Source: Collinsella sp. AF23-4AC (GTDB lineage: Bacteria > Actinomycetota > Coriobacteriia > Coriobacteriales > Coriobacteriaceae). From it: 64,000 nt of DNA. Positions 6,797 to 46,722 of the stretch are shown one piece after another. Under the pieces are notes generated by a model that saw nothing but the letters and a program-made list of their open reading frames with translations, was not told the origin of the DNA and did no database searches. Each line of letters begins with the position of its first letter. Position 1 is the first letter of the stretch. The position numbers and the translations under genes are program-made. Location: assembly GCF_003462685.1 (NCBI RefSeq), contig NZ_QRVE01000007.1, positions 1 to 64,000 on the forward strand. Direction: 5' to 3'.

Positions 6797-7579
6797 ATGC
6801 TTACCAAGCGTGTGATTCCCTGTCTGGACGTTAAGGACGGCCGCGTGGTCAAGGGCGTCAACTTTGTGAGCCTGCGCGATGCGGGCGATCCGGTGGAGCT
6901 GGCGCGCGCCTACGACCGCGAGGGCGCGGACGAAGTCGTGTTCCTGGACATCACTGCGACGAGCGATAACCGTGCGACGACCATTGAGATGGCGGCGCAT
7001 GCGGCCGAGGAGCTGGCCATTCCCTATACCGTGGGCGGCGGTTTTCGTGACCTGGCGGGCATGCGAACCATGGTGGCTGCCGGTGCCGATAAGGTGTCGC
7101 TCAACTCTGCTGCCGTGCGCGATCCGTCGCTGGTCAGCCAAGCTGCCGCTGCATTTGGCAGCCAGGCCGTGGTCGTGGCGATCGATGCCAAGCGTGTTGG
7201 TTTGCCCGGTGAGCCGGGAGCCGACAAGTGGGAGGTCTTTACCGCGGGCGGCCGTAACGCCACGGGTATCGATGCGGTGGCGTGGGCCGAGGAAGCGGCT
7301 CGTCGCGGCGCCGGTGAGATCTTGCTCACCAGCATGGATCGCGACGGCACCAAGGCTGGCTTCGACCTGGCACTCACCCGCGCCGTGGCGCGCGCGGTGC
7401 CGATCCCGGTGATCGCAAGCGGCGGCGTGGGCACGCTCGAGCATTTCGCCGAGGGTGTGATCGAGGGCGAGGCCGATGCCGTGCTGGCGGCGAGCGTCTT
7501 TCACTTTGGAACCTTCAGCATTCGCCAGGTGAAGGAGTACATGGCCTCGCAGGGCATCCCTGTCAGGTTGGACTTCTAG
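6797..7579 (+). CDS. hisF: Imidazole glycerol phosphate synthase, cyclase subunit
   Basis: HisF is the barrel partner of HisH and makes imidazole-glycerol phosphate and AICAR from PRFAR and ammonia. The 260-residue protein shows the catalytic aspartates in [14 protein letters not shown] and [14 protein letters not shown] and the phosphate-binding IASGGVG motif. GGGGAGGAG precedes the start. The AICAR by-product feeds the purine pathway, where the purH gene at 33075 would use it. The stop codon is followed within six bases by a structured repeat (7585-7684), so hisI is separated from hisF by 147 bases. Confidence 0.96.
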
Positions 7580-7584
7580 CGCTG

Positions 7585-7684
7585 CGGCTTGCCCAGGCAC
7601 CGCATCTTGCCGCTCAAACCGTCGCTCGCGTACAAAGTACGCGTCGCTCCTCTTTCGCGGCAACCTGCGGCACCTGGACAACCC
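7585..7684. repeat. Structured intergenic repeat, copy 1 (after hisF)
   Basis: First of three related elements of about 100 nt (others at 34682-34783 and 44256-44354). The outer arms, starting CCCAGGCACCGCA and ending TGCGGCACCTGG, pair over about 21 positions. Inside lie a conserved left loop CTCAAACCGTCG, a small hairpin GCGTAC-AAA-GTACGC and a conserved right loop CTCCTCTTTC. All three copies begin within a few bases of a stop codon. The arms differ between copies but remain complementary. Confidence 0.8.
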
Positions 7685-13669: not shown

Positions 13670-14052
13670 GAAACCTCCTATGCCGTAACGGTGTCGGGCG
13701 GGGTCCTCGGCAGCCGCTTAGTTAGCCAAATGCAACTAGAGTAACATCGTGCAGCGGATAAGTATGCCGAGGGTAATTTTTAGCCGATGAACTGCGTAGA
13801 AAGTTCAAAATTGTTGAGTGCGGCGAACTTTGTGGTGGATGGAGTGCGGGCGCAATTCTGATCGTGTGCGGCCCCGCTTCAAAACGTGTACGTCAGCCTC
13901 CAAAACCGACAAAAAATGACATGTTTGGAGGCTGACGTACATGTTTGGATGAGGGCGAGGGTGACGACGGACGAAAGTCACGCCTGTGCCACGTCCGATG
14001 TGCTAGCGTTTGGGTGAACAAAACGAGCCCGTGCGGAAAGGATCCGGACCGT
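13670..14052. other. Divergent intergenic region
   Basis: This 383-base gap separates the divergent ABC exporter and LarC2 genes and must hold both promoters. Apart from the long inverted repeat at 13882-13946, I see no recognisable riboswitch or gene. An AAAGGA site at about 14038 serves larC2. Confidence 0.5.
13882..13946. repeat. 23-bp inverted repeat with 19-base loop
   Basis: The left arm (13882-13904, containing TGTACGTCAGCCTCCAAA) and the right arm (13924-13946) are complementary at 22 of 23 positions. There is no T tract after either arm, so it is not a normal terminator. It could be an operator for a dimeric regulator, a cruciform-forming site, or a dispersed palindrome. Confidence 0.75.
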
Positions 14053-19473: not shown

Positions 19474-19639
19474 TTTGGGACGGGGCTTTTTTAGCTACAT
19501 GGTCCGCCCGAGCCTTTCCGTGAATGAGTTTTCTGGGACGGGGATTAAAAAATCATTAGGTACACAATGATTTTTTAATCCCCGTCCCAGAAAACTCATT
19601 GGGTGGGCGGAAAAGTAGTCAAAAAAGCCCCGTCCCAAA
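19474..19639. repeat. Nested giant palindrome after ppx
   Basis: An inner perfect 35-bp inverted repeat (19523-19557 with 19566-19600, loop AGGTACAC) sits inside an outer 19-bp perfect repeat (19474-19492 with 19621-19639). Both levels carry GGGACGGGG followed by T-rich or A-rich runs. Transcribed from either side it would form a very long hairpin and may terminate ppx. A weaker relative is at 35651-35680. Confidence 0.85.
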
Positions 19640-33074: not shown

Positions 33075-34682
33075 ATGGGATCTGATGTGAAGATCGCACG
33101 CGCGTTGATCTCGGTTACCGATAAGACGTGCGTCGTCGATTTCGCACGGACGCTGGTCGATGACTTTGGCGTCGAGATCATCTCTACGGGCGGTACGGCT
33201 CGTGCTATCGAGGATGCGGGCGTTCCCGTAACCCCCATCGAGGAGTTCACGGGTTATCCCGAGATGATGGACGGCCGCGTTAAGACCCTGCACCCCAAGG
33301 TTCACGGCGCGTTGCTGGCCCGCCGCGATTCCGAGCAGCACATGCAGGAGGCAGCTCAGCACGGCATTAAGCTGATCGACCTGGTCGTCGTCAACCTGTA
33401 CGAGTTCGAGAAGACCGTCGCCAACCCCGAGGTCACCTTTGCGGACGCCATCGAGCACATCGACATCGGCGGTCCCTCCATGCTGCGCTCCGCCGCCAAG
33501 AACGCCGCGAGCGTTACCGTCATCTCCGATCCGGCCGACTACGACGCCGTCCTGGCCGAGATGCGCGAGACCGGCGGTTGCACCACGCTTTCCACCCGTC
33601 GTCGTCTGCAGGTGAAGGTCTACCAGACCACTGCCGCCTACGACACGGCTATCTCCCGTTGGCTTGCCGCCCAGGCAGGCGACGTGGCGGACACTTCTGC
33701 CAGGCTCGAGGTTTCGCTCGAGAAGGTCGACGACCTGCGCTATGGCGAGAACCCGCAGCAAAAGGCCACGGTCTATCGCTTTGCCGAGGGCTGCGAGAAC
33801 ACCGCGAGCTCGCAGTTCCCGCTCGTTGGCTCCGAGCAGATTCAGGGCAAGCCGCTCAGCTACAACAACTATCTGGACGCCGACGCCGCTTGGAACCTGG
33901 TCCGCGAGTTCGACGAGCCTGCCTGTGTGATCCTCAAGCACCAGAACCCCTGCGGTTCCGCCGTTGCAGAGGACATCACGGCTGCCTACGACCGCGCTTT
34001 TGCCTGCGATCCCAAGAGCGCCTTTGGCGGCATCATCGCTTGCAACCGCGAGGTTCCCTTTGAGTTGGTTGAGCACTTTGCCGATCAGAACAAGCAGTTC
34101 GTTGAGGTCGTCATCGCCCCGAGTTACACCGCCGAGGCGCTCGAGCGCATGGCCAAGCGCCCCAACCTGCGCGTGCTGGCTACCGGCGGCGTGGACCACG
34201 GCGCCAAGGTGGAGCTGCGCTCCATCGACGGCGGCATGCTGGTGCAGGAGGTCGACCACGTGACCGAGGACCCCGCGACCTTTACGTTCCCCACCGACCG
34301 CAAGCCCACCGACGCCGAGATGGCCGAGCTCGAGTTTGCCTGGAAGGTCTGCAAGGGCGTTAAGTCCAACGCCATTCTGGTCTCCAAGGGCAAGGCCGGC
34401 ATTGGCATGGGCCCGGGTCAGCCCAACCGCGTTGACTCCGCGCTGCTTGCCTGCGAGCGCGCCGAGGACTTCTGCGAGCGCGAGGGCGTGGAGAAGGGCG
34501 GCTTTGCCTGCGCAAGCGATGCGTTCTTCCCGTTCCGCGACAACGTCGACGTGCTTGCCGCTCACGGCGTGACCTGCATCATCCAGCCCGGCGGCTCCAA
34601 GCGCGACGACGAGAGTATCCAGGCCTGCAACGAGCACGGCATCGCGATGGTCTTCACAGGTGCCAGGCATTTTAGGCACTAG
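33075..34682 (+). CDS. purH: AICAR transformylase / IMP cyclohydrolase
   Basis: PurH carries out the last two steps of IMP synthesis and also consumes the AICAR released by HisHF. The 535-residue protein has the N-terminal MGS-like cyclohydrolase domain ([18 protein letters not shown] ... [15 protein letters not shown], about 1-200) and a C-terminal transformylase with [11 protein letters not shown] and [25 protein letters not shown] precedes the start. It stands alone; its stop codon is followed at once by copy 2 of the structured repeat and then by a terminator. Confidence 0.96.
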
Positions 34683-34783
34683 GGCTTTCCCAAGCACCCG
34701 ACCTTGCCCCTCAAACCGTCGCTTGCGTACATTTAGTACGCGGCGCTCCTCTTTCGGGGCAATCTCGGGCACTTGGAAAACCC
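34682..34783. repeat. Structured intergenic repeat, copy 2 (after purH)
   Basis: The outer arms start GGGCTTTCCCAAGCACCCGA and end TCGGGCACTTGGAAAACCC and pair over about 29 positions. The inner loop CTCAAACCGTCG, small hairpin GCGTAC-ATTTA-GTACGC and loop CTCCTCTTTC match copy 1. The stem bases differ from copy 1 on both arms so that pairing is kept. Confidence 0.8.
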
Positions 34784-34852: not shown

Positions 34853-34888
34853 AAAAGACGGCCGCTCCGTTTGGAGGGCCGTCTTTTT
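34853..34888 (+). terminator. Terminator of purH
   Basis: AAAAGACGGCC pairs with GGCCGTCTTTT around a 13-base loop, ending in TTTTT. It lies 170 bases after the purH stop, beyond the structured repeat. Confidence 0.88.
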
Positions 34889-40081: not shown

Positions 40082-41059
40082 TTGGATATCATCGAGCTTC
40101 TAAAATCTGCCTTCATGGGCCTGGTCGAGGGCATTACCGAATGGCTGCCCGTTTCGTCGACCGGTCACATGATCTTGGTGGACGAGTTCGTCAAGATGAA
40201 CGTGAGCGAGACGTTCTGGAATATGTTCCTGGTCGTGATCCAGCTTGGCGCCATTTTGGCCGTCTGCGTCCTGTTCTTCTACGACCTTAACCCGTTTTCT
40301 CCCAGCAAGGGCAAGGAGGGCCGTCGCGACACCTGGGTGCTGTGGGGCAAGATTGTGCTCGGCTGCATTCCCGCCGCGGCAATCGGTCTGCCGCTCAACG
40401 ACTGGATGGAGGAGCATTTCTACAATGCTCCCGTCGTGGCACTGGCGCTCATCGTATACGGCGTGCTGTTTATCGTGATCGAGAACTGGCGCGCGAACAA
40501 GCGCGAGCAGGCTGCTCTTGCCGGTTCGTTTGGTTCTCGTGCCGTGACGTCGGGTGGGCGTCCCGCTGGCGCACACTTTGCCGCACCCGCTGCGACTGCC
40601 GCTGCAGACGACGATGACGATAACCTGGACTTTGGTTCCATCGCTACGCTCGAGGACCTGAGCTGGAAGACCGCACTGGGCATCGGTTGCTTCCAGGTGC
40701 TCTCGCTGGTGCCTGGTACGTCTCGCTCCGGTTCTACCATCATCGGTGGCCTGCTTTTGGGCTGCACGCGTTCGGTGGCGTCCAAGTTTACGTTCTTCCT
40801 GGCCATCCCTGTCATGTTTGGCGCGAGTGCGCTCAAGCTGGTCAAGTACTTTATTAAGGGCGGTACGTTCGGTGCCAACGAGGTCGCTATCTTGGGCGTG
40901 GGCTGCGTTGTGGCCTTTGTGGTTTCGCTCATCGCCATCAAGTGGCTCATGGGCTTCGTTCGCCGTCACGACTTTAAGTGCTTCGGTGTTTACCGCATCA
41001 TCCTGGGCATCGTAGTGCTCGCATATTTCTTCGTTCTGGAGCCTATGCTCGGCCTGTAA
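40082..41059 (+). CDS. uppP: Undecaprenyl-diphosphatase UppP/BacA
   Basis: UppP recycles the lipid carrier of cell-wall synthesis and gives bacitracin resistance. The 325-residue integral membrane protein has both signature motifs, VEGITEWLPVSSTGHM and VPGTSRSGST, and about eight hydrophobic segments. TTG 40082 is the best start, with AGGGGG upstream and a normal N-terminus; GTG 40061 would place the ribosome site inside the gene. A charged, Ala-rich cytoplasmic insert (about residues 145-185, with a run of Asp) makes it longer than E. coli UppP (273). A strong terminator follows. Confidence 0.94.
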   Translation: MDIIELLKSAFMGLVEGITEWLPVSSTGHMILVDEFVKMNVSETFWNMFLVVIQLGAILAVCVLFFYDLNPFSPSKGKEGRRDTWVLWGKIVLGCIPAAAIGLPLNDWMEEHFYNAPVVALALIVYGVLFIVIENWRANKREQAALAGSFGSRAVTSGGRPAGAHFAAPAATAAADDDDDNLDFGSIATLEDLSWKTALGIGCFQVLSLVPGTSRSGSTIIGGLLLGCTRSVASKFTFFLAIPVMFGASALKLVKYFIKGGTFGANEVAILGVGCVVAFVVSLIAIKWLMGFVRRHDFKCFGVYRIILGIVVLAYFFVLEPMLGL

Positions 41060-41073
41060 CTTGGTTGACGCTG

Positions 41074-41174
41074 CGCGGCGGCCAGAGCGACAACTTGTCA
41101 TTCAAAGAGGGCGGCATGACCAAAAGGTCTATGCCGCCCTCTTTTCATGTCAATTTGTTCGCTCTGGCCGCCGC
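41074..41174. repeat. 100-base near-continuous hairpin after uppP
   Basis: The core terminator AAAGAGGGCGGCAT-ACC / GGT-ATGCCGCCCTCTTT (41104-41145) lies inside an outer pair GCGGCGGCCAGAGCGA (41074 onward) with TCGCTCTGGCCGCCGC (ending about 41174). The core shares GGCATGACC..AAGGTCTATGCC with copy 3 of the structured repeat. It terminates uppP and may be another palindromic insertion. Confidence 0.8.
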
Positions 41175-41352
41175 TCGCTACCGTTGCCGTGACATCGGTG
41201 GCTCCGTGATTGGTCCAATGGGGTCAGGTTTGGCGGCGGCGCACGGAGTCGTGGTGTGATTTGCGTCGGTGTCCGTGCGGCTCGGTATACTGGTACGGCT
41301 CAAACTATGGCGCTGCCCGCAGGCGCGCCGTCCGTCAGATGAGGAGTCGCCC

Positions 41353-44253
41353 ATGACCCAGCCCTTGCCCTGGGAAAAGAACACCGCGGTACCCGTGCCG
41401 CCCGCGCCGGAACCCGTGCCACTCGATGCATACGCCGCCCCCGCCGTGCCGGAACCCGAACTTGTCCCGCTCGACATCTACGACGCCCCCGCGCCGGCTC
41501 CTGCGCCCGCAAAGCCGCTTGTCGACATCGACAGCCTTAATCCCGCCCAGCGCGAGGCGGTCCTCACCACCGAGGGCCCGCTGCTGGTCCTTGCCGGCGC
41601 CGGCTCGGGTAAGACCCGCGTCCTGACCTTCCGCATCGCGCATATGCTCGGCGACCTGGGCGTTAAGCCTTGGCAGGTGCTTGCCATCACGTTTACCAAC
41701 AAGGCCGCGGCAGAGATGCGTGAGCGTCTGGCGGCGCTCATCCCCAGCGGCACCCGCGGCATGTGGGTATGCACCTTCCACGCCATGTGCGTGCGTATGC
41801 TGCGCGAGGACGCCGACCTGCTGGGCTACACCGGTCAGTTCACCATCTACGATGACGATGACTCAAAGCGCATGGTGCGCGATATTATGCAGGCGCTCGG
41901 CATCGAGCAAAAGCAGTTTCCCATTAACATGATCCGCAGCAAGATCAGCTCGGCCAAAAACGCCATGATCGGGCCCGAAGACATGCTCAAGTCCGCCGAT
42001 AGCCCCAACGACAAAAAGGCCGCGCAGGTCTACCTGGAGCTGGAGCGCCGCCTGCGTGCTGCCAACGCGATGGACTTCGACGACCTGCTCGTGCGCACGC
42101 TCGAGCTGCTGCGCACCCGCCCCGAGGTGCTCGACAAATACCAGGAGCGCTTCCGCTACATTAGCGTCGACGAGTATCAGGACACCAACCACGTCCAGTA
42201 CGAGATCGCCAACCTGCTGGCCGCCAAGTACCAAAACCTCATGGTCGTGGGCGACGACGACCAGTCCATTTACAGTTGGCGCGGCGCCGACATCACCAAC
42301 ATCCTGGACTTTGAGCAGGACTTTAAAAACTGCAAGACCGTTAAGTTGGAGCAAAACTACCGCTCCACGGGCCATATCCTGAGCGCCGCCAACGCCGTGG
42401 TGCGCCACAACTCGCAGCGAAAGGACAAGCGTCTGTTTACGGCCGAGGGCGATGGCGAGAAGATCCAAGCCTTCCAGGCGAGCGACGAGCGCGACGAGGG
42501 CCGCTGGATTGCCGGCGAGATTGAGAAGCTGCATGCCAAGGGCACGAGCTACGACGATATCGCCGTGTTCTACCGCACCAACGCCCAGTCGCGTATTCTC
42601 GAAGATATGTTCCTGCGTGCGGGCGTGCCCTACAAGATTGTCGGCGGCACGCGATTCTTCGACCGCGCCGAGATCCGCGATGTCATGGCTTACCTCAAGA
42701 TGATCGTGAACCCGGCCGACGAGATGAGCGTCAAGCGCGTCATCAACACGCCGCGTCGCGGCATCGGCTCCACTTCAATCCAAAAGATTGAGCAGCTGGC
42801 GCGCGACAACCGTTGCTCGTTCTTCCAGGCCTGCGAGATTGCGACAGCCGAGACGGGCATGTTTAGCGCCAAGGTGCGCAATGGCCTGTCGAGCTTTGTG
42901 GCGCTGGTGCGCGAGGGCCGTCGCATGGACGGCGAGCTCAAGGACGTCGTCGAGATGATCGTCGATAAGACGGGGTTGCTGCAGGCTTTTCGTGCCGAGG
43001 GCACTATGGAATCCGAGAGCCGCGCCGAGAACATCCAGGAATTCCTGGGTGTCGCCGCCGAATTTGAGGAGACACACGAGGATATCGAGGGCACGCTCGA
43101 GAGCTTGGAGGAGTTGCGCGCTGCCGGCGTTGCCGACGTGCCTGCCGGCGCCGAGCCCGAGCCCGTCGTGGTGAGTGCGCCCGCGCCCGAGCCGGGACCC
43201 TCCGCCCCGGCATCTTCGTTTGAAGTGCCCATCGGCGCACGTGACGCCGCGGGCACCAATCCGCTCGATAGCCTGGCCGCTCCGGCACTCTCGCCGCAGG
43301 ACGCCCTGGCCGCCGCCATCGCGGGCAACGCATATGCCGCGCCGACGGAGTTGCCGGCGGGTGCCGTGCATGCCGATGAGATTGAGCGCACCTACGGTCC
43401 GCTCACCTGTAAGGCGCTTCCCGCACTTATGGAGTGGCTGGCCCTGCGCTCCGACTTGGATTCCCTGGCCGGCGAGACGCATGCCATCACCATGATGACC
43501 ATCCACTCCGCCAAGGGCCTGGAGTTCCCGGCGGTGTTCGTGGCCGGCATGGAGGAGGGCATCTTCCCGCATGTGCACGACTTTAGCGGCAGCGATGACC
43601 CGGGCAAGCTCGAGGAGGAGCGTCGCCTGGCCTACGTCGCCATCACGCGTGCCCGTAAGCGCCTGTTCTTGACCTATGCGGCCACGCGCCGCACGCATGG
43701 CTCAACTTCTGCCAACCCGCGCTCGCGCTTCCTCAACGAGATTCCGTTTGAGGATATCGAGTTCAGCGGTATCGGTTCTGCCGGTTTTGAGGGCACGGGC
43801 TGGGAGAAGCGCGGCGACCGTCATGGCACCTTTGGCTCGGGTATGGGCTCGGATATGTACGGCGGCAAGGTGTTTGGCTCGCATACGCGCTCGACCGGCG
43901 GCTCCGCCTCGCGTGGCGGATCGAGCTTCGACGATTTCTTTGGCGGCAGCAGTTATGGGACCGAGCGTCATCGCGGGGTCTCGCCCGACGCCGGCCGTGT
44001 CGCCTCGACCTTTGGCTCGGGTGCATCGCGAGCCAAAAAGCCGTCGTCCAAGGTGTCGCCGACGGTGGAGCGCAAGGTCGATCGCGCGAGCGCGTCGCAG
44101 GACTTTGCCGCGGGCGATACCGTGAGCCACAAGACCTTTGGCACGGGTACCGTGATCTCGGTCGCCGGAGACATGATCGAGGTTCAATTCGAAAAGACCG
44201 GCCAGACCAAAAAGCTAATGAAGGGCTTTGCACCTATAGTGAAACTGACCTAG
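41353..44253 (+). CDS. pcrA: UvrD/PcrA-family DNA helicase
   Basis: The 966-residue superfamily 1A helicase unwinds DNA in repair and replication restart. Motifs in order are AGAGSGKTRVLTFRIAHML (Walker A, about 83), VDEYQDTN, GDDDQSIYSWRGAD, LEQNYRSTG, TIHSAKGLEFPAVFVAG and AITRARKRLFLTYA. The C-terminus ends with the PcrA-type RNA-polymerase-interaction module (HKTFGTGTVISVAGDMIEVQF). ATG 41353 follows GAGGAGTCGCCC. Two low-complexity Ala/Pro segments are unusual: an N-terminal one (about 9-55) and an insert near residues 589-683 in domain 2B. Copy 3 of the structured repeat follows the stop. Confidence 0.95.
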   Translation: MTQPLPWEKNTAVPVPPAPEPVPLDAYAAPAVPEPELVPLDIYDAPAPAPAPAKPLVDIDSLNPAQREAVLTTEGPLLVLAGAGSGKTRVLTFRIAHMLGDLGVKPWQVLAITFTNKAAAEMRERLAALIPSGTRGMWVCTFHAMCVRMLREDADLLGYTGQFTIYDDDDSKRMVRDIMQALGIEQKQFPINMIRSKISSAKNAMIGPEDMLKSADSPNDKKAAQVYLELERRLRAANAMDFDDLLVRTLELLRTRPEVLDKYQERFRYISVDEYQDTNHVQYEIANLLAAKYQNLMVVGDDDQSIYSWRGADITNILDFEQDFKNCKTVKLEQNYRSTGHILSAANAVVRHNSQRKDKRLFTAEGDGEKIQAFQASDERDEGRWIAGEIEKLHAKGTSYDDIAVFYRTNAQSRILEDMFLRAGVPYKIVGGTRFFDRAEIRDVMAYLKMIVNPADEMSVKRVINTPRRGIGSTSIQKIEQLARDNRCSFFQACEIATAETGMFSAKVRNGLSSFVALVREGRRMDGELKDVVEMIVDKTGLLQAFRAEGTMESESRAENIQEFLGVAAEFEETHEDIEGTLESLEELRAAGVADVPAGAEPEPVVVSAPAPEPGPSAPASSFEVPIGARDAAGTNPLDSLAAPALSPQDALAAAIAGNAYAAPTELPAGAVHADEIERTYGPLTCKALPALMEWLALRSDLDSLAGETHAITMMTIHSAKGLEFPAVFVAGMEEGIFPHVHDFSGSDDPGKLEEERRLAYVAITRARKRLFLTYAATRRTHGSTSANPRSRFLNEIPFEDIEFSGIGSAGFEGTGWEKRGDRHGTFGSGMGSDMYGGKVFGSHTRSTGGSASRGGSSFDDFFGGSSYGTERHRGVSPDAGRVASTFGSGASRAKKPSSKVSPTVERKVDRASASQDFAAGDTVSHKTFGTGTVISVAGDMIEVQFEKTGQTKKLMKGFAPIVKLT

Positions 44254-44255
44254 GC

Positions 44256-44354
44256 GGCTTTCCCAGGCACGGCACCTCGGCCTTCAATCGTCGGGCATGA
44301 CCTCAAGGTCTATGCCCTCCTCTTTCAGGCCGATCTGCCGCACCTGGAAAACCC
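44256..44354. repeat. Structured intergenic repeat, copy 3 (after pcrA)
   Basis: The outer arms begin GGCTTTCCCAGGCACGGCA and end TGCCGCACCTGGAAAACCC and pair. Inside are TTCAATCGTCG, the hairpin GGGCATGACC-TCAA-GGTCTATGCCC and CTCCTCTTTC. The inner hairpin is longer than in copies 1 and 2 but occupies the same place. Confidence 0.78.
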
Positions 44355-44384
44355 GTACATCCGGCTGGCGGGCACGCCGGGGGC

Positions 44385-44466
44385 TTTGGTCGCCTGCTCG
44401 GGCAGTCCTGCGCAAGACGGAGAGCACATTAAGTGCTCTCCGGCTCGTGCGGAACTCGCGATCGAC
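44385..44466. repeat. Flanking repeat R1, left copy
   Basis: It contains the palindrome GGAGAGCAC-ATTAA-GTGCTCTCC and extended sequence (TTTGGTCGCCTGCTCGGGCA ... GTGCGGAACTCGCGATCGAC) that reappears inverted at 46620-46699 on the other side of the AbiE-like gene pair. Confidence 0.75.
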
Positions 44467-44577
44467 GTTGTCCATGGCGCCTGTCCGGGGCCTTGGGTAG
44501 CGTTGCTTGCGAGCGTCGCTCTGCTTGTTCGCTTTTTGGCCTGGAGAGCCGGGTGGGCTGATATATAGATATGAGTA

Positions 44578-46593: not shown

Positions 46594-46722
46594 GCTCGCC
46601 GGGATGGGCGCGGGGTTTGGTCGATCGCGAGTTCCGCACGAGCCGGAGAGCACTTAATGTGCTCTCCGTGCGAGCAGGACTGCCCGAGCAGGCGACCAAA
46701 CCCCGCGCCCATCCCGGCGAGC
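46594..46722. repeat. Long palindrome containing R1, right copy
   Basis: Perfect 30-bp arms (46594-46623, GCTCGCCGGGATGGGCG onward, and 46693-46722) enclose R1 with its core GGAGAGCAC-TTAAT-GTGCTCTCC (46645-46667). The R1 core is inverted relative to the left copy at 44385-44466. Confidence 0.85.

Follow-up and report, generated by a model that had tools for sequence, protein, structure and literature searches.

We have identified a family of palindromic DNA elements in the 64,000-nt stretch of Collinsella sp. AF23-4AC analysed here (the window) and in its relatives. It is probably a new non-autonomous mobile element, similar in kind to REP sequences and Rickettsia palindromic elements (RPE), that is distributed across the bacterial order containing Collinsella, Eggerthella and their kin. 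The initial annotation had offered a 3′-end processing or protection element, a regulator-binding RNA and a REP-like element as possible identities; the mobile palindrome is the best-supported of these, since the copies are dispersed, orthologous sites are variably occupied and some copies lie in frame within unrelated genes.

The window carries three copies that align to one another end to end, all folding better on the minus strand and all at the edge of a plus-strand TAG stop codon. The first, at 7585..7684 (R1 112.6 bits), lies in the hisF/hisI intergenic region behind the hisF stop (7577..7579); the second, at 34682..34783 (R1 109.1 bits), abuts the purH stop (34680..34682); the third, at 44256..44354 (R1 90.6 bits), follows the pcrA stop (44251..44253). 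The model matches begin at +6, 0 and +2 nt from these stops, respectively. Reading the sequence thus bore out the coordinates and stop adjacency first given for the three hairpins of ~100 nt. Among the neighbouring genes, NCBIfam places hisF and purH above cut-off, with hisI downstream of the first copy, while pcrA is the best family for the gene before the third copy at a score below cut-off. The initial count of three was correct for these copies but missed a fourth, more diverged one behind the uppP stop codon (41057-41059), at 41060..41185 on the minus strand (model match 41075-41174; R1 39.5 bits, E 1.6e-6). It combines the outer sequences GACGCTGCGCGGC / GCCGCTCGCT with an inner hairpin of the type seen in the third copy, which differs there from the other copies (GGCATGACC..GGTCTATGCC).

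On both strands, the first three copies each fold more stably than all 200 shuffled sequences (z from -4.6 to -9.8). Minus-strand folds of copies 1, 2 and 3 reach -69.4, -63.5 and -72.2 kcal/mol, versus -48.2, -49.6 and -54.7 kcal/mol on the plus strand. No T run follows these copies, so the GC hairpin plus U run of an intrinsic terminator is absent. A terminator pattern scan reported none near the second copy; the same scan also missed a hairpin-plus-T run at ~34854-34888 and therefore carries little weight.

A covariance model was built from ten copies, read on the minus strand. The nearest genome compared contains 21 copies under strict filters and 25 with E up to 1. The initial annotation had named the lack of further copies in related genomes as one observation that would count against it; matches were found in 39 of the 43 genus genomes (20-33 copies in 25 of the 43), in 53 of 65 genomes and five of six genera of the family, and in 144 of 297 genomes and 45 of 107 genera of the order. 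Twelve of the 65 family genomes gave no match. Copies per genome in the order-wide scan, which scored few candidates per genome, are floors. An 18-base core pattern occurs in at least 120 stretches of named genomes; among the 80 matches listed, most are from Collinsella, with Atopobiaceae, Coriobacteriaceae and Olsenella records also present, and two matches from other phyla were left out of the count. We made no use of a match in a Paracaedibacteraceae MAG (L197:3279-3376, E 4.5e-5), located right after a TAG stop and weak in its outer stem; it may be due to chance, as a few chance matches to an 18-base pattern are expected in 257 Gb. A Bdellovibrionales MAG (L174) contains the 18-base pattern and yet has no model match. 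Much of what follows concerns a sister family of the host bacteria, taken as Eggerthellaceae from the homolog names of one host gene.

Membership in an Rfam family, with Collinsella-1 suggested as a candidate, was not borne out. At gathering thresholds the window and 20 loci yielded one tRNA each and nothing at the element; below threshold, four matches fell around the second copy, Collinsella-1 not among them. We found no account of the element family in the open-licence literature, a collection outside which most subscription journals lie. One study lists 3161 candidate human-microbiome RNAs, 20 of them palindromic and without a predicted terminator (PMC8040213, seen in part). It is possible that the element is among these unnamed candidates, as the absence from the literature concerns main texts and does not extend to supplementary tables.

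The fuller form of the element is that of the sister family, where all 30 aligned copies have it. In gene sense it consists of a short 5′ hairpin, CGACGCTGCG, a long quasi-palindrome, CTCGCTGAC and GACCTGCG. The Collinsella copies mostly comprise the long quasi-palindrome only, which has two mismatch sites and a core hairpin. The conserved core and the mismatch sites are common to the different families. One mismatch site is a tandem T.G/G.T on the minus strand, equivalent to C.A/A.C on the sense strand, and occurs in 55 and 58 of 79 Collinsella-type rows and in 56/86 and 47/85 rows of the sister family; a small internal loop lies five pairs inward of it. Conservation of the loops, as first described, holds for most copies; in L009, L012, L014 and the copy at 41075 the outer stem is kept and the core is changed. 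The claim that arm changes are paired so that the stem persists was confirmed, with both-side changes at 29 of 33 modelled pairs among 85 distinct copies. The covariation score for these copies was 0.471 versus 0.156 after shuffling, a value that none of 500 shuffles reached and that pairings slid out of register (0.065-0.112) did not approach; the figure is not a probability, because the copies share ancestry and were aligned by fitting them to the model.

The two strands are not equivalent with respect to wobble pairs. We summed by hand the stem columns outside the core, without the two columns of conserved wobbles. Over the 80 distinct rows of the Collinsella-type set, G.T pairs on the minus strand outnumber A.C pairs by 87 to 40, though by only 42 to 37 when columns 6 and 7 are also removed; over the 87 distinct rows of the sister family the figures are 100 and 29. 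The known cytosine deamination bias of the leading, coding strand would act in the opposite direction. If one strand is selected for folding, it is the antisense one, whether in DNA or in some antisense transcript so far unseen; alternatively, selection may act against stable hairpins in the sense strand. The notion of a structure acting as gene-sense RNA is thus unsupported, and a role of the sense RNA is doubtful, because folding is more stable on the antisense strand.

Placement at stop codons is strict. From the 97 matches in named loci and the window we obtained 89 distinct upstream flanks; many are still orthologous, so the sites are not independent. A stop codon was assigned in 83 of them (38 TAA, 37 TAG and 8 TGA). 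Relative to the stop, 50 elements start at -10..+7 nt, 14 at 10-23 nt, 12 at 41-66 nt and seven farther away, three of the last being second copies of tandems. At the 12 sites with 41-66 nt, the interval between the stop and the element contains, by eye, a further small hairpin and a stretch resembling GACGCTGC. For the 22 best copies of genome G001, whose gene contexts rest on an older gene caller, the gene on the upstream side runs toward the element in 19; L057 and L065 follow no sense gene, and L063 lies within a called ORF. Eight of 18 copies in this genome (L057, L063, L065 and L067 left out) start within 7 nt of a stop, against 1.3 expected from even placement in their own gaps. In one G001 gene the last codons and the stop are supplied by the element.

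In the sister family we examined the contexts of 81 of the 89 matches in three genomes. A first codon model was discarded because it predicted spurious ORFs opposite the true genes in this GC-rich DNA; the retrained model called SecY and PurC, named from their translations, on the right strand. No ORF spans 71 of the 81 copies, and the upstream gene is in the same sense in 69 of these 71; of the other two, one has an upstream gene of opposite sense and one has no called gene. The initial statement that copies are in the sense of the preceding gene is a strong rule, though not without exception: L143/L151/L172 and L153/L179/L184/L188 are flipped. Distances from the stop to the outer stem of the 69 copies cluster at 25-26 nt (12 copies) and 39-48 nt (43 copies), the other 14 being scattered from 10 to 903 nt. 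In six copies read at 25-26 nt the stop codon lies in the loop of the first hairpin, which makes the left arm of this hairpin coding. At L325 the gene end VVYTPI-stop is encoded by the left arm of the 5′ hairpin, and 120 of 120 homologs listed (of 1762) end in FLAxV[YH][TE]P plus one residue. Judged from these protein ends (the flanks of the homologs being unseen), the gene end likely predates the hairpin; as the coding end looks native, the right arm probably mirrors the host sequence.

Occupancy of orthologous sites varies. Among 30 hisF-hisI loci, eight have a window-type element, eight a core variant, one a distant relative (by eye) and six are empty without a spacer; the other seven hold other sequences, several of them other palindromes. 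The purH site of ten genomes has the window type in five, another variant in two and no element in three; in the three without it the stop codon is TAA, compared with TAG in the window. At the pcrA site the element was seen in two of 30 loci, one locus being cut after 47 nt. By contrast with these sites, the uppP site (41075) is filled in ten of ten syntenic genomes, with an altered 3′ half in two. Target duplication was not seen at the hisF and purH sites, and no exact empty/filled junction was obtained there. At these two sites the filled alleles have ~40-55 nt more flanking sequence, and deletion may therefore account for some of the 'empty' ones. Occupancy differs between close species, and either direction of change is compatible with the data.

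Other palindromes occur in the same regions. The hisF-hisI spacer of L100 is a ~220-nt near-perfect palindrome right after the hisF stop, and different palindromes occupy this spot in other relatives, which gives it the look of a hot spot for insertion. A long quasi-palindrome with a GGAGAGCACATTAAGTGCTCTCC core is present in the window as two inverted copies ~2.2 kb apart (44369-44500 and 46594-46722) with a 50-bp perfect inverted repeat; in about 20 close relatives a palindrome of this type, with paired core changes, lies behind the pcrA stop. These palindromes make a second element family. The window also has a 35-bp perfect inverted repeat with an 8-nt loop (19523-19600) and a 32-nt 88% inverted repeat with a 19-nt loop (13873-13955). 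An Ala/Asp-rich extra loop of ~45 residues in UppP (window 40508-40640) was considered and is not a palindrome of this family.

An ORF runs across ten of the 81 sister-family copies. In nine, representing eight kinds of gene, the element is in sense and in frame and adds ~55 residues; the tenth (L315) has an antisense, unconvincing ORF and was excluded from the in-frame count. By Pfam and NCBIfam names, the insert is internal to the protein in RecQ (twice), RsmA, MurD and HypF; in CarA, the indolepyruvate oxidoreductase alpha subunit, a fumarate hydratase and a YqeG phosphatase it lies at the C-terminus or close to it. The zinc-loop pattern of RecQ was read in 16 of 30 loci, the 14 that did not fit being left unjudged: two contain the element (G114 and the query's own G135), another six have just 5-9 residues at the insert spot and the remainder have longer unrelated stretches. 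The recQ zinc loop of G120 (L517) holds an unrelated in-frame palindrome at this same spot. The insert frame is open in 9/9 in-gene copies and in 38 of 66 others, where the other five frames are open in 24-47; a conserved open frame was thus ruled out as the cause of orientation.

The sense strand of the element coincides with the leading strand of replication in 33/34 (G123), 33/34 (G114), 21/21 (G135) and 37/39 (G120) copies. The strand on which copies lie changes along the chromosome. Independently of the element, the switches were placed by GC skew, sampled in each genome at 20 segments of 12 kb, with some noisy points. The total, 124 of 128 copies versus 494 of 700 sampled genes (p 1.5e-14), was added by hand, and the test treats copies as independent and compares them with all sampled genes, not with core genes; a hand count in G001 gave 18 of 22. 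Core genes are leading-strand biased anyway. With that bias uncontrolled and copies treated as independent, a separate role of replication in the orientation of the element is suggested only.

The search for a mobilising enzyme covered Y1 transposases. Among family genomes (64 of 65, G036 left out), Y1 genes are present in 47 of 52 with copies and five of 12 without (Fisher p 7e-4, kinship ignored). Despite this co-occurrence we rejected RAYT/Y1 as the mobiliser: none of the 32 Y1 loci of the family carries the element within ~1.5 kb flanks, and eight of 13 copy-rich sister-family genomes have no Y1. Seven sister-family Y1 loci showed no clear element, with two weak matches (E 0.0065 and 0.068). 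Palindromes, most of them with GGGAC, lie near the Y1 genes of L277, L281, L289, L294, L295, L296 and L303; the two are possibly a true REP-RAYT pair of this order.

Compared with known systems, the element shares traits with several. Integron attC sites are imperfect hairpins after a stop codon, in gene sense, whose bottom strand folds. The element resembles them in all these respects, whereas it is scattered behind housekeeping genes and an R-box consensus is not evident by eye. Of the features of a MITE, inverted arms are present, target duplication was unseen and a parent transposon was sought among Y1 genes only. RPE are palindromic repeats of ~150 bp, many of them in frame within unrelated genes (PMC10969869, seen in part). 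Our nine in-frame copies show the same property, a likeness at the level of class that involves no sequence comparison with any RPE; the element differs in that its copies are mainly found behind genes, in their sense and at the stop codon, that its hosts belong to another phylum and that it has no conserved open frame (38/66 outside genes). REPs of the GTAG and CGTC super-families are, in the part of the survey available to us, dispersed palindromes of 20-40 bp, mostly downstream of coding regions, that carry an unpaired GTAG or CGTC at one of their ends (PMC3733652; Di Nocera 2013). According to the same source, the CGTC type has an 8-9 bp stem with AT in the first two pairs and mostly a CCA-like tail and has no dedicated transposase. 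REPs also include intragenic units and units embedded within longer palindromes; the main text of that source never mentions Actinobacteria by that word. Our element is ~100-190 nt long, composite and largely in one orientation. Its CGTC lies in the core loop (AAACCGTCG), by eye without AT-AT pairs or a CCA tail, and none of the Y1 loci examined is clearly flanked by the element, as in REP with RAYT.

If the element is mobile, copies would arise by insertion, likely as a single-stranded hairpin and perhaps near replication forks, with an enzyme acting in trans, and would persist where harmless: at stop codons, in protein loops and at C-termini in an open frame. Homogenisation of the palindrome at the DNA level by template switching, together with selection for a hairpin opposite to the mRNA, would produce the paired arm changes, and any influence on mRNA ends would be incidental. 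Fork-coupled single-strand movement could explain the polarity, as in IS200/IS605, where orientation follows the direction of replication (PMC5371812, seen in part). The element differs from IS200/IS605 in having no attached Y1 gene; moreover, its better-folding strand, in the observed orientation, would be opposite to the one expected from a peeled lagging-strand template. Alternatively, polarity may reflect survival of copies whose strong hairpin stays unexposed on the lagging-strand template. A more specific scheme, which we regard as speculative and rather unlikely, has a fork-coupled single-strand hairpin target stop codons at the 3′ end of leading-strand genes; the 5′ hairpin would be rebuilt on the last codons of the host gene, with the stop ending in the loop, and a host replication, repair or recombination enzyme would suffice without a dedicated transposase.

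Several observations speak against mobility. Gene sense and abutment to stop codons are stricter than random insertion followed by purifying selection easily gives, the 41075 site is filled in 10/10 genomes as expected of a functional element, and the search gave neither an enzyme among Y1 transposases nor a clean target duplication. These same facts of placement and occupancy, along with the conserved internal mismatches and strong covariation, would fit a selected gene-sense 3′-UTR RNA for 3′-end processing or protection, such as an RNase III-type hairpin or an exonuclease barrier. We consider this improbable, as the wobble pairs favour the other strand (87 vs 40, or 42 vs 37 without two columns, and 100 vs 29), nine copies are within coding sequence and close relatives do without the element at hisF, purH and pcrA.

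There is even less to recommend a replication-polar chromosome element (a KOPS-like or skewed architecture site) kept on the leading strand for a job in replication or segregation, which we hold to be very unlikely. The leading-strand excess by GC skew, 124/128 against 494/700, speaks for it; yet Collinsella G001 has only 18/22, the copies also follow the sense of genes that are leading-biased anyway, and 12/65 family genomes have no match. Least probable of all is that the elements are old, decaying palindromes at gene ends whose arms stay complementary through template switching only, with neither selection nor mobility. The mirrored coding arm at L325 fits such a process, as does the near strand-symmetry of Collinsella-type mismatches outside columns 6, 7, 13 and 14 (42 vs 37), but the core and mismatch sites are conserved across families, copies are in frame in unrelated genes and the wobble asymmetry of the sister family is left unexplained. 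A mobile palindrome remains our preferred reading.

How REP and RPE families move when no transposase is known for them, and why they favour gene ends, are long-standing questions. The present elements can be aligned across a whole order, are composite in structure, and show strict gene sense and strong replication polarity. With orthologous sites that are filled or unfilled among close species and with in-frame copies in genes such as murD and rsmA, they allow direct tests, in gut bacteria that can be cultured, of whether the element moves, which strand it uses and how far proteins tolerate it. What we describe appears to be a new family of very small mobile DNA elements whose placement is unusually strict.
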